Shown here in pieces: positions 238 to 21,197 of a DNA stretch of 46,168 nt. The DNA lies in the IMG/VR virus record IMGVR_UViG_3300042371_000665, positions 1 through 46,168 of that record, one strand, 5' to 3'. The DNA is from a virus. Numbering within the stretch: position 1 is the first letter of the stretch; the number at the start of each line of letters is the position of its first letter. The translations under genes and the position numbers were made by a program. Under the pieces are notes generated by a model that searched no databases, had not been told where the DNA came from, and saw only the letters and a program-made list of their open reading frames with translations.

Positions 238-945
238 CTAATTAAATTCTACTTTATCAAATTCTTTACAGGGTTTACAATCTTCCCTTAGTTTAAGCAT
301 TAAGTGATTTACTTTTAAGACCTCTTTCCATTTGCCTTTATAAACCTTCTTGTACTCTCTTGCTACGCTCAATAACAAAAACTTTGAGTTTTCTAATACC
401 TTAGATGCTCCTTTATCTCCTATCCCTTTAACACCTTTTACATTATCTGAAGCATCACCCATTAATAGTTGCTTGTGAAAGTTGAAGTTTGCTTGTTCTT
501 TGGTTATATTCTTAATCTCTCCAAAACGTGCGTGATATAAATCATAGCTTGTAACTGGGAATGTATGATAGTCTTTATCATTTACTGCAATAACAACTTC
601 ACTCAAGGGGTATTCGCTTTGTAAATACTTTATAGTAGATATTATAGAGTCATCAGTTTCAACCCCTACAGATAAGTAAGGGTTGTATGTCTGAATTATG
701 TATTCCTTTATCTCCTTAAAATTTAAAGGAAGTTCTTTATTTACTCTATTAGCTTTATAAGAAGGGTTTAAAATCTTTCTGAAGGTGGTATTACCTTTAC
801 TCTCTAAAAAGACTCTGTAATGACTTGATTTAGTATCTACAACTACTTGAGAGATAATTTCATCTACCCTATCGCAATATTCATCAAGCGACTCTATGTT
901 TTTGTATAGAATTGAGTCAAAATCTATAAGCACTATTTTATCCAT
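238..945 (-). CDS. 5'-3' exonuclease, FEN/T7 gp6-like (RNase H-type)
   Basis: A 235-residue flap-endonuclease-family protein. Near the N-terminus, IVLIDFDSILY supplies the first metal-binding Asp. A central segment has ETDDSI, and NDKDYH carries further acidic residues. Residues about 165-185 (GDASDNVKGVKGIGDKGASK) are the helix-three-turn-helix DNA-binding motif typical of 5' nucleases. The family removes RNA primers and degrades or trims 5' ends during replication and recombination. The size fits stand-alone phage enzymes such as T7 gp6 or T5 D15 rather than a DNA polymerase I domain. It is the largest replication gene seen at this end, and its polymerase and primase partners probably lie further left. 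Confidence 0.9.
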   Translation of the reverse strand: MDKIVLIDFDSILYKNIESLDEYCDRVDEIISQVVVDTKSSHYRVFLESKGNTTFRKILNPSYKANRVNKELPLNFKEIKEYIIQTYNPYLSVGVETDDSIISTIKYLQSEYPLSEVVIAVNDKDYHTFPVTSYDLYHARFGEIKNITKEQANFNFHKQLLMGDASDNVKGVKGIGDKGASKVLENSKFLLLSVAREYKKVYKGKWKEVLKVNHLMLKLREDCKPCKEFDKVEFN

Positions 946-965: not shown

Positions 966-1166
966 TTAAAACGGACAATATTCTTTTTTAGGTTTAGGAA
1001 TTAAGTCTTTATATTCTCGTTTAATTTTTTCAGCAATGGCTTCACGAATGAATCTAGCAGTATCAATATTGTATGATTTCATCTTTTTAAGTGTTAAAAG
1101 TTGTGTTTCTGAAATTCTTATAACTTTAGTATATTTTAAAGGTGCTTTCATAGTTTTGTAATACAT
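966..1166 (-). CDS. Small ribbon-helix-helix-like protein
   Basis: A 66-residue basic protein. Residues about 10-50 contain a beta-strand-like stretch (YTKVIRISETQ) followed by two helices (LLTLKKMKSY, TARFIREAIAEKIKR), the pattern of ribbon-helix-helix DNA-binding proteins. The tail is Lys/Pro-rich. An ATG five codons in (MKAPLKYTK, at 1151) is an equally good start. It lies directly downstream of the half attC-like element near 1186. It may be a transcription regulator or plasmid-type antitoxin; no toxin partner is obvious. Confidence 0.65.
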   Translation of the reverse strand: MYYKTMKAPLKYTKVIRISETQLLTLKKMKSYNIDTARFIREAIAEKIKREYKDLIPKPKKEYCPF

Positions 1167-1186
1167 TTATATCGTGTAGCAAGTAG

Positions 1187-1498
1187 TTATGTGCCATACG
1201 AGATTTGCAGACACCCAATTGTAATACTATTATGATAGCCGTCATAGTAATACTCATCGCTTTCGTGTATCCATTCAAATCTCCATTGCTTACGAAGTGC
1301 TATTGATAAGTAGCAATATTTCCATCTGAATATCTTACCAGCGATAAAGTGATTAAATCCACCATATTCTTTCAATCGGCTATCAAATAGTTCGACACCA
1401 AACCAAAAGAACATATTGGAGAAAGTACGGCACATAACAGCAAGTATATTCAATTGCGGTTTCTGTTGTTTATCAGAGTTTTGTACTTCTAATTTCAT
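1187..1498 (-). CDS. Hypothetical cassette-borne protein
   Basis: A 103-residue protein rich in Trp, Tyr and Phe (MFFWFGVELFDSRLKEYGG, then IFRWKYCYLSIALRKQW). I do not recognise a family. Its first 21 codons run through one arm of the attC-like palindrome at 1434-1561. An alternative start at 1435 sits in the GTTATG that ends that palindrome and gives an 82-residue protein. A purine-rich AAGAAGGA precedes the longer start. The stop lies inside the ATAAC of a third, half element at 1186-1190. The arrangement suggests a second mobile cassette gene beside the methyltransferase. Confidence 0.6.
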   Translation of the reverse strand: MKLEVQNSDKQQKPQLNILAVMCRTFSNMFFWFGVELFDSRLKEYGGFNHFIAGKIFRWKYCYLSIALRKQWRFEWIHESDEYYYDGYHNSITIGCLQISYGT

Positions 1499-1561
1499 TC
1501 CTTCTTAATTTAAAGTTTTGTGATTCTAAGTCCGCAACTAAATATACTTGCAAAACGTTAT
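1434..1561 (-). repeat. attC-like imperfect palindrome B (128 bp)
   Basis: On the minus strand the element reads ATAAC, a 5-nt spacer GTTTT, a 20-nt arm (1551-1532), a 72-nt centre, a second 20-nt arm (1459-1440), a single T, then GTTAT. The two arms match at 18 of 20 positions as an inverted repeat. Outer ATAAC/GTTAT, the asymmetric 5/1 spacer and arms beginning GC and ending GG are shared exactly with the element at 2289-2418, although the arm sequences differ. Conserved geometry with divergent sequence is what integron attC sites show. The outer boxes only partly match the classical attC core, so the assignment is an inference. Confidence 0.6.
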
Positions 1562-1570
1562 GCACAAGCA

Positions 1571-2254
1571 CTAATTTTCGTTTTCAAAAAGACGTTCTGC
1601 TCGTTTTTGCTGTAATTTACTACCTCTTTCTTCCGATGCTATTGCTATTTCATTATTTAATTCAAAGCAAATACCATTTCTGTTTGTTTCATCACAAGAA
1701 ACTCCAGTTGAACCAGAACCTCCAAATAAATCCAATACGGTTTCGTTTTCTTTAGTAAATCCATTTATTAGCATTTTTATTAATTCAACAGGTTTTTGCG
1801 CTCCGTGAATTTTATCCGAATCCGTTTTAAAATTTAACACACTTGGTAAATGTGTAAATGCTCCGTGAGGTTTAAACTCTTTAAAACTTTGATTTGCGTA
1901 AAAAATAAGTTCGTGTCTTTTTCTAACAGGTTTTCCCATTCCTATTTTGTTTTTATCCCAAATCAACAATCCTATATTTTGCCAATCATAAAAAGTTGAA
2001 AAAAGAATAGGATAAAATTTATCATCGCAAAAGAAAAATACAGGTGCATCAGGTTTCAATACTCTTTCAAGTTTCTTTTTCATTTCAGTAAAGTAAAATT
2101 CTTGAATTGATAAATCAGCCAAGTTTTTAAACTTCTTTCTTCCAAATGCGGTTATTACAGGTGTTGAATAAGGCGGGTCTGTTATTAGCAAATCTACGCT
2201 ATTATTTGGCATTGAATCTAAGCCAATCATACAATCTTCATTTATTATTTTCAT
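1571..2254 (-). CDS. DNA adenine/cytosine-N4 methyltransferase, DPPY type
   Basis: A 227-residue SAM-dependent amino-methyltransferase. Catalytic motif IV, LLITDPPYST, comes near the N-terminus, and the SAM-binding motif FGGSGSTG comes near residue 190, so the order is catalytic-then-SAM (beta-class architecture). The start at 2254 is chosen because family members usually begin a few residues before NEDCMIGLDSMP. An in-frame ATG at 2290, inside the end of palindrome A, would add 12 residues. No restriction endonuclease is adjacent. In a phage such enzymes usually modify the phage's own DNA against host restriction. The gene sits alone between two attC-like palindromes, which suggests acquisition as a mobile cassette. 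Confidence 0.9.
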   Translation of the reverse strand: MKIINEDCMIGLDSMPNNSVDLLITDPPYSTPVITAFGRKKFKNLADLSIQEFYFTEMKKKLERVLKPDAPVFFFCDDKFYPILFSTFYDWQNIGLLIWDKNKIGMGKPVRKRHELIFYANQSFKEFKPHGAFTHLPSVLNFKTDSDKIHGAQKPVELIKMLINGFTKENETVLDLFGGSGSTGVSCDETNRNGICFELNNEIAIASEERGSKLQQKRAERLFENEN

Positions 2255-2288
2255 AAGTTCGTTTATTTTAAAATTCCCGTGCCAGTGC

Positions 2289-2418
2289 ATAACAGCAATT
2301 TGGCAATATGTCGGTTTTGGTTATTAATTTAATGTTCGTTTTGTACTTTTAAAATCAGTCATAAACTGAAAGTCTTGGCTTCCTTAATCCGCCACATCGC
2401 CAAGTTGCGGAACGTTAT
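2289..2418 (-). repeat. attC-like imperfect palindrome A (130 bp)
   Basis: On the minus strand: ATAAC, spacer GTTCC, a 20-nt arm (2408-2389), a 74-nt centre, a second arm (2314-2295), a single T, then GTTAT. The arms match at 16 of 20 positions as an inverted repeat. The centre holds a small nested hairpin (TCAGT/ACTGA). Its geometry equals that of the element at 1434-1561. The left end overlaps the TAA stop of the ERF gene, so insertion occurred exactly at the end of that gene. Higher GC and different base texture from the surrounding phage DNA support a foreign origin. Confidence 0.6.
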
Positions 2419-3038
2419 CTCACTTCTACTCCGATTAAATCCTCTTCCTTTAAACCTAGATTCTTAACCTGTTCTTTAGTCAAGTATTTAGATGTAGCTA
2501 ATTGTTTAAGAGTATTTTCTTTGTTAGTCTTCAATAACTCTTGTAGTTTAGTCATGTCTACTATCGGGGTTTTCTCTGCTTTAGCTGAAGGTGTAACTAA
2601 CTCTTTACCGTGCATATTAGTTGCATCAGAATCTTTAGTATCATCAATTAAGAACATACCATTTAAGGCGTATTTTCTAGCGTAAGATGATGTTGAACCA
2701 GTTAGTTGAGCCGAGTCCATACCTTTCTTACTTTCCTCTTCTCTAGCCAATGCTTTAGTCTCTTGACTCTCTATTCCATTAGTTACAATTACAGTTGCTT
2801 CAACATATATTCTACCTCCTATTTCCACAATACTATCTGAAATATGCATCCTTAATTTATGTCTCCCTAACAAAGGTTTTACTGCTTCTAAGATGTCCTC
2901 TTGATTTCTATAAGAGTATTTACCAAAAGAATTAAATTGTCCTTTAGGTGCTTTTAAATTGCTTTGTATCTCTTGTATTCTCTCTGTGAAACTCAATGCT
3001 ACTGCTTCTACTGTTTCTTTTTTTGCTACTGTTGCCAT
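2415..3038 (-). CDS. erf: ERF-family single-strand annealing protein
   Basis: A 207-residue recombinase of the ERF superfamily. The N-terminal two thirds hold the family core: FTERIQEIQSNLKAPKG, then FGKYSYRNQEDILEAVKPLL, and the signature GSTSSYARKYALNGMFLIDD near residues 115-135, followed by DTKDSDATN. ERF proteins bind ssDNA and promote annealing, often for genome circularisation or recombination-dependent replication. The C-terminal part (about 145-207) is a Lys-rich linker and small helical tail. The nearby FEN-type nuclease could supply resected ends. The stop codon is shared with the start of the attC-like palindrome A. Its 25-nt leader is identical to that of the gene at 3361-3630. 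Confidence 0.92.
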   Translation of the reverse strand: MATVAKKETVEAVALSFTERIQEIQSNLKAPKGQFNSFGKYSYRNQEDILEAVKPLLGRHKLRMHISDSIVEIGGRIYVEATVIVTNGIESQETKALAREEESKKGMDSAQLTGSTSSYARKYALNGMFLIDDTKDSDATNMHGKELVTPSAKAEKTPIVDMTKLQELLKTNKENTLKQLATSKYLTKEQVKNLGLKEEDLIGVEVR

Positions 3039-19640: not shown

Positions 19641-21197
19641 CTATTGAACTCTTTTAAAATTAATTGTACAACCTAATTGCATTACTTGACCTGCTACTGA
19701 TACTGCGTTTTCTAAAGCACATCTAACTACTCTTGTAGGGTCTATAATACCGCCTTTAATCATATCTGCATAATCGTATTTCTTAACATCATATCCAACG
19801 CTATCAGAGTGCATATCTAAATTACTCTCAATAACTTTATAATCTAATCCAGCATTTTCAAGTATTTTTCTAAATGGAGCTTTAATACTCTCTTGTAAAA
19901 CGTGATACCCTGCTGATTTAGAATCATTAGGTATATTAAGTTTAAACGAAGCATTATACAAAGCTAATCCACCTCCAGAAACAACACCTTCTTTAATAGC
20001 TGAATTAACCGCATGAATAGCATCATCAACTCTATCTAATCTCTCACTAAGCTCAACTTCTGTAGCCCCACCGATTTTAACTATACTAATACTACTTGAT
20101 AATTTAGCAACTCGGTCTTTTAAAATATTAATCGCTAAATCTGATGTTTGGTCTTCAATACTTAAATTTAACTCTCTTACTCTATTACTAATACTCTCTG
20201 CATTTGATTCTAGCAATTCTAAGACACTTTCTTCCTTACCTACAGTACATTTACTTACTTGACCTAAAATATCAAGTCCTAGGCTCTCTAAATGAGTCGC
20301 AGATAAACTATCAATATATGTAGCTCCTGTAGCAATAGCTAAATCTTCCATATATCTTTTTCTCTTATCGGTGTATTCGTGTTCAGGAGGTGTAAGATGA
20401 GATACTTTGATTTTACCTTGAATATTATTAATTAATAAGATTTGTTTTAAATCATTATTTAAATCAGCTACAATTAATAATTCTTTATTTTCAGTTGCAA
20501 TATGCTTAATAATAAAATCTATTTCATTAAAAGATTTGATTTCACGATTACAAATAAATACATAAGGATTGTTTAATAATTTATTAGAGAATCTTTCATC
20601 ACTATACCCTCTTTCAATAGGCATACCTGAAGTAGTCTTAACATAACTCTCTAATTTCTCTGATGTTTCGTAAGTTACAACACCATTAGTTCCTGCCTTT
20701 AAAAAAGCATCTGCAATTAAACCCCCTAATTCTTCATCGTTATTAGCTGAGATATTAGCAATATCAAAGAAAAACTCATCTACAACGGGTTTGCTATTTT
20801 CTTTTAAAATCTCTACAACCGCTTTAGTCGCTTCCTCAATACCATTCTTTACATCTATAGGTGATGCCCCCTCTAATATAGCTTTTTCTGCACCTACAAT
20901 AATACTCCTAGCTAATACAGTAGTAGATGTTGTTCCATCTCCTGCTTGGTCCACCGTTTTTTGAGCTGCTTGTTTAAGTAATTCAGCTCCACAACTTGCT
21001 AATGGTGATTCTAAGAAAATAGCTTTAGCTACAGATACACCATCTTTTGTAATACTAGGCAATCCACCAGACCCCTCTATTAAAACAGTTTTACCTCTAT
21101 AACCTAAAGTAGAGCCTACTGCATCTGCTACAATATTAATACCCTCTAAAATACCTTCTTTGGCGTTATTCCCAAATGTAACTTCTTTTGCAATCAT
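19641..21197 (-). CDS. groEL: GroEL-like group I chaperonin
   Basis: A 518-residue chaperonin, about 30 residues shorter than E. coli GroEL. Conserved blocks in order: TKDGVSVAKAI (ATP site), AGDGTTSTTVLARSI (catalytic loop), apical domain with PIERGYSDERF, RVDDAIHAVNSAIKEGVVSGGG (includes the equivalent of Asp398), and GGIIDPTRVVRCALENAVSVAG. The Gly-Gly-Met-rich C-terminal tail is missing; the protein ends NFKRVQ. It should form a working ATP-driven folding ring. It is transcribed opposite to the surrounding late genes from its own box near 21240. Confidence 0.95.
   Translation of the reverse strand: MIAKEVTFGNNAKEGILEGINIVADAVGSTLGYRGKTVLIEGSGGLPSITKDGVSVAKAIFLESPLASCGAELLKQAAQKTVDQAGDGTTSTTVLARSIIVGAEKAILEGASPIDVKNGIEEATKAVVEILKENSKPVVDEFFFDIANISANNDEELGGLIADAFLKAGTNGVVTYETSEKLESYVKTTSGMPIERGYSDERFSNKLLNNPYVFICNREIKSFNEIDFIIKHIATENKELLIVADLNNDLKQILLINNIQGKIKVSHLTPPEHEYTDKRKRYMEDLAIATGATYIDSLSATHLESLGLDILGQVSKCTVGKEESVLELLESNAESISNRVRELNLSIEDQTSDLAINILKDRVAKLSSSISIVKIGGATEVELSERLDRVDDAIHAVNSAIKEGVVSGGGLALYNASFKLNIPNDSKSAGYHVLQESIKAPFRKILENAGLDYKVIESNLDMHSDSVGYDVKKYDYADMIKGGIIDPTRVVRCALENAVSVAGQVMQLGCTINFKRVQ

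Follow-up and report, generated by a model that had tools for sequence, protein, structure and literature searches.

Integrons have been described as rare in Bacteroidota, and a 2022 IntegronFinder survey of complete genomes reported a single complete integron in Bacteroidetes proper, that of Salinibacter (PMC9024848). An additional domain specific to IntI has been called defining for the integron integrase (PMC9668308), and in Treponema integrons the integrase is transcribed with the cassettes (PMC3607928). CALINs have also been described in phages, among them the Polaribacter phage P12002L with its methyltransferase (MTase) cassettes (Qi et al. 2023, PMC9892861); the main text of that paper names no Flavobacterium, Bacteroides or crAss-like phage.

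The DNA considered here, referred to as the window, is the whole stretch that was analysed: 46,168 nucleotides of a viral record (IMG/VR IMGVR_UViG_3300042371_000665, positions 1 to 46,168). An earlier note on this DNA had compared two of its palindromes with integron attC sites. They are very probably attC-analogue recombination sites belonging to two adjacent cassettes, inserted at the stop codon of the ERF gene by the mechanism proposed below. Comparison of sequences gives high confidence that the system would work like an integron cassette system: whole cassettes are gained or lost precisely at the box junction (the 931-bp case below), unrelated single genes stand in tandem arrays, the sites are conserved in structure, and a tyrosine recombinase is linked to them. 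It is not a classical IntI integron, because the insert that defines the integrase was tested for and is absent.

The system resembles sedentary chromosomal integrons in its tandem one-gene cassettes and structure-conserved site with AAC/GTT boxes, in an end-located tyrosine recombinase that is co-directional with the chromosomal cassette genes (the Treponema type, PMC3607928), in a possible attI-like junction just past the integrase stop codon, and in cargo that is mostly diverse or unknown. It differs from them in a recombinase that lacks the IntI insert, carries an N-terminal extension of about 66 aa and falls in a separate clade, and in sites with spacers of 5 and 1 nt, R arms of about 15 nt, a mismatch at position 11 and a G.T pair in the stem; such sites were not found in Pseudomonadota by the covariance model described below (R1). 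Like the phage CALINs (PMC9892861), it includes attC-type arrays that lack an integrase, reside in virulent phages and carry MTase cargo. Unlike them, it has a rule of gene orientation and phage-encoded integrases at array ends, neither of which is described in the accessible part of that paper, and P12002L is unmatched by R1.

Two cassettes at the end of the ERF gene

The window phage is of Flavobacterium type. Its terminase is nearest, among isolates, to those of Elemovirus (Flavobacterium; 62% amino acid identity) and of Cellulophaga phages, and the description "crAss-like" was not confirmed, the taxonomic lineage of Elemovirus naming no order. The window also contains a full-length Cpn60/TCP-1 chaperonin gene (19641-21197, minus strand; Pfam 1e-60), and a co-chaperonin is annotated in the Elemovirus relatives found by the terminase match.

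Between its ERF and exonuclease genes the window has two cassettes and a small phage gene (Table 1). In the Elemovirus isolate NC_062743, only 25 nt separate the ERF stop from the exonuclease start, and the two genes also abut in one metagenomic relative. The empty site anticipated by the earlier note is thus apparently present in a related phage, as judged at the level of gene order and in a phage with a 62% identical terminase. When the surroundings of ERF and exonuclease relatives were searched, one locus had sites and the other 82 of the 83 had none, and a search of the region against plasmids gave no match.

Table 1. Features of the cassette region and the integrases at phage array ends (coordinates are those of the window unless a contig is named)
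Feature	Position	Strand	Basis or remark
5'-3' exonuclease gene	238..945	-	directly after ERF in Elemovirus isolate NC_062743
Small phage gene, 66 aa, phrog_25647	966..1166	-	between cassettes and exonuclease gene
Cassette 2, G-hairpin-R'-ORF-R'', 371 bp	1186..1556	-	last cassette; repeat search, sequence, R1
R'' arm of cassette 2, GTATGGCACATAAC	1186..1199	-	repeat search
ORF of cassette 2, 103 aa	1187..1498	-	first ATG inside hairpin loop
R' arm of cassette 2, GTTATGTGCCGTAC	1425..1438	-	13/14 complementary to 1199-1186
Site B, attC-like hairpin TAAC-GTTTT-stem-loop-stem-T-GTTA	1435..1560	-	geometry scan, folding; R1 114.1 bits, 1e-23 (in R1 training set)
Cassette 1, G-hairpin-R'-MTase-R'', 857 bp	1557..2413	-	boundaries by analogy with FPSV-D15 and own-arm pairing
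R'' arm of cassette 1, GTGCTTGTGCATAAC	1557..1571	-	repeat search
N6/N4 DNA methyltransferase gene	1571..2290	-	Pfam N6_N4_Mtase 2e-25; phrog_67 DNA methyltransferase 2e-48
R' arm of cassette 1, GTTATGCACTGGCAC	2279..2293	-	13/15 complementary to 1571-1557
Site A, attC-like hairpin TAAC-GTTCC-stem-loop-stem-T-GTTA	2290..2417	-	geometry scan, folding; R1 103.9 bits, 2e-21 (in R1 training set)
ERF single-strand annealing protein gene	2415..3038	-	Pfam ERF 9e-39; sequence
Small XerA-like phage integrases at array ends	L095 659-1489; L122 3920-4756; L130 4612-5421; L191 3423-4298		own clade

Both palindromes have the geometry and core pairing first described for them, on the minus strand: TAAC, 5 nt, a 20-nt arm, a loop, the second arm, T and GTTA. 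A geometry scanner (score of at least 26) returned sites A and B as the only ones in the window and none in six Markov shuffles. Folded as single-stranded DNA, both elements beat shuffled sequences on the minus strand (z of -2.6 and -4.5), and did so more weakly on the plus strand (-1.2 and -2.5). The note had placed one element exactly at the ERF stop codon. The two do adjoin, but the element does not merely follow the stop: the TAA of the ERF gene (2417-2415) is itself the TAA of the TAAC box to which cassette 1 is joined.

The DNA had been read as a single MTase gene flanked by two sites, and this has to be revised to two cassettes, each with its hairpin 5' of its own gene and with that gene antisense to the canonical attC direction. 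Cassette 1 runs from one junction between TAAC and G (TAAC/G, at 2414/2413) to the next (1557/1556), and site A travels with it from G2413; site B belongs in the same way to cassette 2, starting at G1556. Beyond cassette 2 no further hairpin follows, and the phage's own sequence begins again at 1185 (TACTTGC...). A second inverted repeat, made up of the R' and R'' arms and absent from the earlier note, encloses each gene and not each hairpin (GTTATGCACTGGCAC/GTGCTTGTGCATAAC for the MTase gene, GTTATGTGCCGTAC/GTATGGCACATAAC for the next ORF). The first ATG of the MTase frame lies inside the R' box, and the in-frame ATG at 2254 is the likelier start. The ORF of cassette 2, which matched no family, could plausibly start at 1414 and encode 75 aa. 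The hairpin loop was considered as a source of start codons or N-termini for phage cassette genes, but an ATG frame that stays open through the hairpin ran on into the gene in 20 of 84 cases, against 12 of 84 and 18 of 84 for the two remaining frames, with no clear enrichment.

A family of sites and movable units in Bacteroidota and their phages

By DNA similarity, site A recurs in the Flavobacterium phages 6H, 2A and FPSV-D15 (Duneviridae) and in the lillamy group, where lillamy9-1 has 13 sites, all on one strand. A DNA pattern search of IMG/VR gave 109 stretches, most with additional sites, and the pattern also matched Bacteroidota chromosomes with site arrays, the host counterparts that the earlier note had proposed. 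R1 was built from 56 non-redundant sites and finds sites in 111 of 198 Bacteroidota genomes. On chromosomes the sites form arrays beside a tyrosine recombinase. The R1 alignment has 22 pairs, with changes on both sides at 18 of 18 stem pairs and 347 double-change cells, compared with 109+-9 after shuffling and no more than 92 with partners slid; because the sites were first chosen by a stem/box scanner that rewards pairing, the paired percentage is partly a matter of construction, and the fixed boxes and spacers are less built in, except for the filtered TAAC, GTTA and two flanking bases.

The general unit begins with a hairpin of about 120 nt, after which come an R' arm, the gene and an R'' arm that matches R' (G-hairpin-GTTAnnn...gene...nnnTAAC). 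In 6H, 2A and FPSV-D15 a unit opens with the sequence found in the window (GTTATGCACTGGCACGGG...AACGAACTTATG) and then carries an RNA-ligase-like gene, not the MTase; in 2A and FPSV-D15 it also closes as in the window (GAAAACGAAAAT.TAGTGCTTGTGCATAAC). Identical flanks can thus hold different genes. The clearest case of movement comes from two Flavobacterium phage isolates: FPSV-D15 has exactly 931 bp more than 2A between TAAC and G, with flanks that are 99.9% identical over 900 nt on the left and identical over 899 nt on the right. The comparison demonstrates a mobile unit, in keeping with the earlier proposal that attC-like cassettes had been inserted into a phage. Because this insert opens with G and a hairpin, closes with TAAC and contains two cassettes, a hairpin moves, in gene orientation, together with the gene next after it. 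The canonical assignment of each hairpin to the upstream gene was rejected for phages on this insertion and on homologous cassettes: the clearest homologous pairs in different contexts have the 5' hairpin in common and not the 3' one. One pair shows the opposite and looks rearranged.

The arms argue for the same unit. In 99 of 140 phage units and 28 of 36 chromosomal ones, the two arms of one cassette are complementary at each of the three variable positions, as against 12 of 140 and 2 of 36 for arms facing each other across the same hairpin. Pairing between a cassette's own arms continues as far as position 15 and is interrupted by a nearly invariant mismatch at position 11. This is the pattern predicted by an excised circle with its crossover at TAAC/G, and since arm sequences vary between units and match within one, the arm sequence itself is not the signal. 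The insertion junction falls between the G and TTA of the canonical GTTA. The canonical bottom strand is the more stable in 106 of 117 and 33 of 41 sites, a preference partly selected by the scanner. At one stem pair (columns 31/126 of alignment A2), 52 of 55 sites have G.T. Both this pair and the position-11 mismatch would form G.T on one strand but C.A on its complement, and strand choice may be set in this way.

On chromosomes, cassette genes follow the canonical attC direction in 85 of 92 scored units (85:7). In phages they run antisense to it in 115 of 116 (115:1; phage versus chromosome, Fisher 1e-48), with one contig, L219, having been moved to the phage class post hoc. L219, from a Chitinophagales bin, was dropped as a chromosomal exception since its genes for a polymerase, a ribonucleotide reductase and an endonuclease show it to be a phage-like contig. 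The integrase of chromosomal arrays is transcribed with the cassettes; on four phage contigs it again points the same way as the genes, but its place is downstream. As a guess, the reversal in phages may reflect a requirement for co-directional phage transcription combined with an attC direction that is fixed relative to replication.

Several minor observations concern the distribution of sites. Orientation can flag phage contigs in genome bins, as for L219 (G014:C166). On one chromosome-sized Bacteroidota contig (G206:C1 3222001-3300000, loci L341-L343) sites extend over at least 65 kb, with an integrase at one end. Sites also occur on two contigs binned outside Bacteroidota, L213 (Aminicenantes bin) and L200 (Sphingomonadales bin), which are possibly misbinned phage or Bacteroidota DNA. 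At L208 and L253 some hairpins are near-identical within one array and others differ, a recurrence reminiscent of the host-specific homogeneity of attC sites in chromosomal integrons.

The recombinase beside the arrays

In 20 cassette-bearing genomes no protein passes the cut-off of the integron integrase model TIGR02249, which proteins of 41 of 200 Pseudomonadota genomes do pass. In 13 of the 20 a single protein stands out as the best match, about 350-390 aa long (longer in one case), to which TIGR02249 aligns in part, over about 2-181 and 236-315 with a gap between. This integrase adjoins the array in five of the 13 and in roughly fifteen more genomes of a second sample, giving about 20 genomes with both on the same contig, and the relative orientation of integrase and array is nearly constant. 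Sites are present in 66 of 70 integrase-bearing genomes (those with a strong match, A1 E<=1e-70), compared with 45 of 128 others (Fisher 2e-17). The earlier note had suggested an integron-like recombinase; host arrays do have a tyrosine recombinase beside them, and it is not a classical integron integrase.

In the array integrases a conserved extension at the N-terminus (about 66 aa or more) accompanies a SAM-like domain and a phage-integrase domain. Their best or near-best sequence and fold matches are of XerA/XerC type (NF040815, "site-specific tyrosine recombinase/integron integrase"; PDB 5hxy); they differ from such recombinases in being linked to cassette arrays and not to a dif site, and in the conserved extension. 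In a model of the extension (L263 14200-15240 and relatives, residues 1-66) the order of elements is beta-beta-alpha-beta-beta-alpha, and a weak DUF5710 match was seen in L253 only. A structure search with a model of pTM only 0.51 returned tyrosine recombinases only and gave the N-terminal domain no identity. The distance from the stop codon of the integrase gene to the end of the array is 74-115 bp at eight loci, with a loosely shared T-rich/TATAT sequence, and this is a candidate attI.

Four viral contigs encode a XerA-like integrase of 265-290 aa; its gene comes after the final site and shares its strand with the cassette genes. No integrase gene of this type is present in the window, and most phage arrays examined have none nearby. 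Since most phages show none and 45 genomes with sites lack a strong match, the array integrase is put forward only as the presumptive acting enzyme.

The question arises whether these are after all classical integron cassettes, with true attC sites moved by IntI and found in the phage as a CALIN. Much in the architecture would suit this: boxes ending in AAC (R'') and starting with GTT (R'), a hairpin, tandem single-gene cassettes, an adjacent tyrosine recombinase, and a junction that in canonical orientation lies at G/TT. Phage CALINs are moreover on record, the Polaribacter phage with MTase cassettes included (PMC9892861). The enzyme and the sites nevertheless make it rather unlikely. The KGxKDR to LRHS segment measures 77-78 aa in array integrases and 119-125 aa in true IntI, the IntI-specific insert (patch III region) being absent. 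In the tree, 12 true IntI proteins form one clade (support 99), the array integrases another (87; core 98) and the four phage integrases a third (86). R1 finds no site in 200 Pseudomonadota genomes, although 41 of them carry a true IntI above the curated cut-off, and matches neither the neighbourhoods of true IntI genes nor P12002L, which was tried as a family member and rejected. The spacers are asymmetric (5 and 1 nt). The earlier note had seen the core boxes matched only in their AAC/GTT parts. These parts (TAAC/GTTA, to be exact) do occur, to some extent because the scanner was defined by them; the complete RYYYAAC/GTTRRRY consensus is found at 3 and 7 of 158 sites, and the window sites match 5-6 of 7 positions. 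The idea of a related but undescribed family has thus held up in the form of the R1 family of Bacteroidota, no description of this Bacteroidota and phage cassette system having been found in the open-access literature.

Proposed mechanism and cargo

The mechanism proposed for the cassette system begins with excision as a circle, in which the cassette's own R'' and R' arms (about 15 bp, with the position-11 mismatch) would pair on either side of the hairpin and rebuild a full site of about 150 nt. A tyrosine recombinase would join the rebuilt site, probably via one folded strand, at TAAC/G (canonically G/TTA) to another site or to a minimal TAAC/GTTA. The candidate enzyme in hosts is the Bacteroidota-specific XerA/IntI-like integrase beside the arrays and, in some phages, the phage-encoded relative of 265-290 aa. 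Because the window has no integrase gene, an enzyme of the host or of a co-infecting phage, acting in trans, is the likeliest agent of their insertion there.

The presence of an ERF gene beside integrase-free cassettes, and the lack of a nearby integrase in most phage arrays, could also suggest that phage genes are shuffled by Erf-type annealing or by ordinary recombination of similar hairpins, with no site-specific recombinase. This is unlikely, because most hairpins of different cassettes have little sequence in common, junctions are exact at TAAC/G with arm pairing maintained within cassettes, and four phage arrays end in a XerA-like integrase gene. Non-autonomous transposable units, with the inverted arms of about 15 bp serving as terminal repeats for a transposase, would account for the arms on each unit and for precise movement. 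They are a very improbable explanation, since the arms differ freely between units and match within one, the 931-bp insertion has no target-site duplication, the arrays are long, head-to-tail and beside a tyrosine recombinase, and the arms of successive units are separated by a hairpin conserved in structure. Phages often have intergenic hairpins next to a lone accessory gene, and this general frequency, which no computed result augments, is what would favour a moron gene flanked by ordinary terminators or regulatory hairpins; a loop of about 75 nt, a stem end that lacks a T run, no Rfam family and a fixed box-spacer-arm geometry in common with chromosomal arrays make that reading scarcely credible.

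The site-specific cassette system is also in line with the distribution of its elements, which might have proved unique to this phage or fixed in context: they recur elsewhere, they flank unrelated genes, and a relative lacks the cassettes. It is probable that Bacteroidota have a second major cassette-capture system, separate from IntI (sister or convergent), with a patch-less integrase that has its own N-terminal domain. Phages would keep a distinct pool of reversed genes, sometimes with their own integrase, and exchange counter-defence genes such as MTases; hosts would stock restriction and defence genes in like cassettes. More than half of the 198 Bacteroidota genomes carry integron-like sites that lie beyond the reach of the classical integrase model. 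The array integrase offers a testable case of whether folded-site recombination really depends on the IntI insert.

Among 57 phage cargo proteins, N6/N4 methyltransferases are the commonest (15 of 57); single cases are a D12 methyltransferase, a Dam methyltransferase, Mom, an RNA ligase and a Thg1-like protein. The 66 chromosomal cargo proteins include, once each, an Eco47II-type endonuclease, Shedu, an Argonaute-like protein, DndB, a MazF-type toxin and a beta-lactamase-family protein, as well as transporters. Bacteroidota arrays thus hold restriction, Shedu, Argonaute-like and toxin genes, and because phages carry like cassettes rich in MTases, genes of attack and defence may circulate on one movable format. 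MTase-type cargo plausibly shields phage DNA from restriction, in which case the cassettes would give phages a route to gain counter-restriction genes rapidly. They would also explain variable gene blocks in Flavobacterium phages. The N6/N4 MTase of the window is of the kind known from orphan phage DNA methyltransferases, here placed in a movable cassette. Its closest relative (76% aa) belongs to another virus with no such sites nearby, so this gene also exists outside cassettes.
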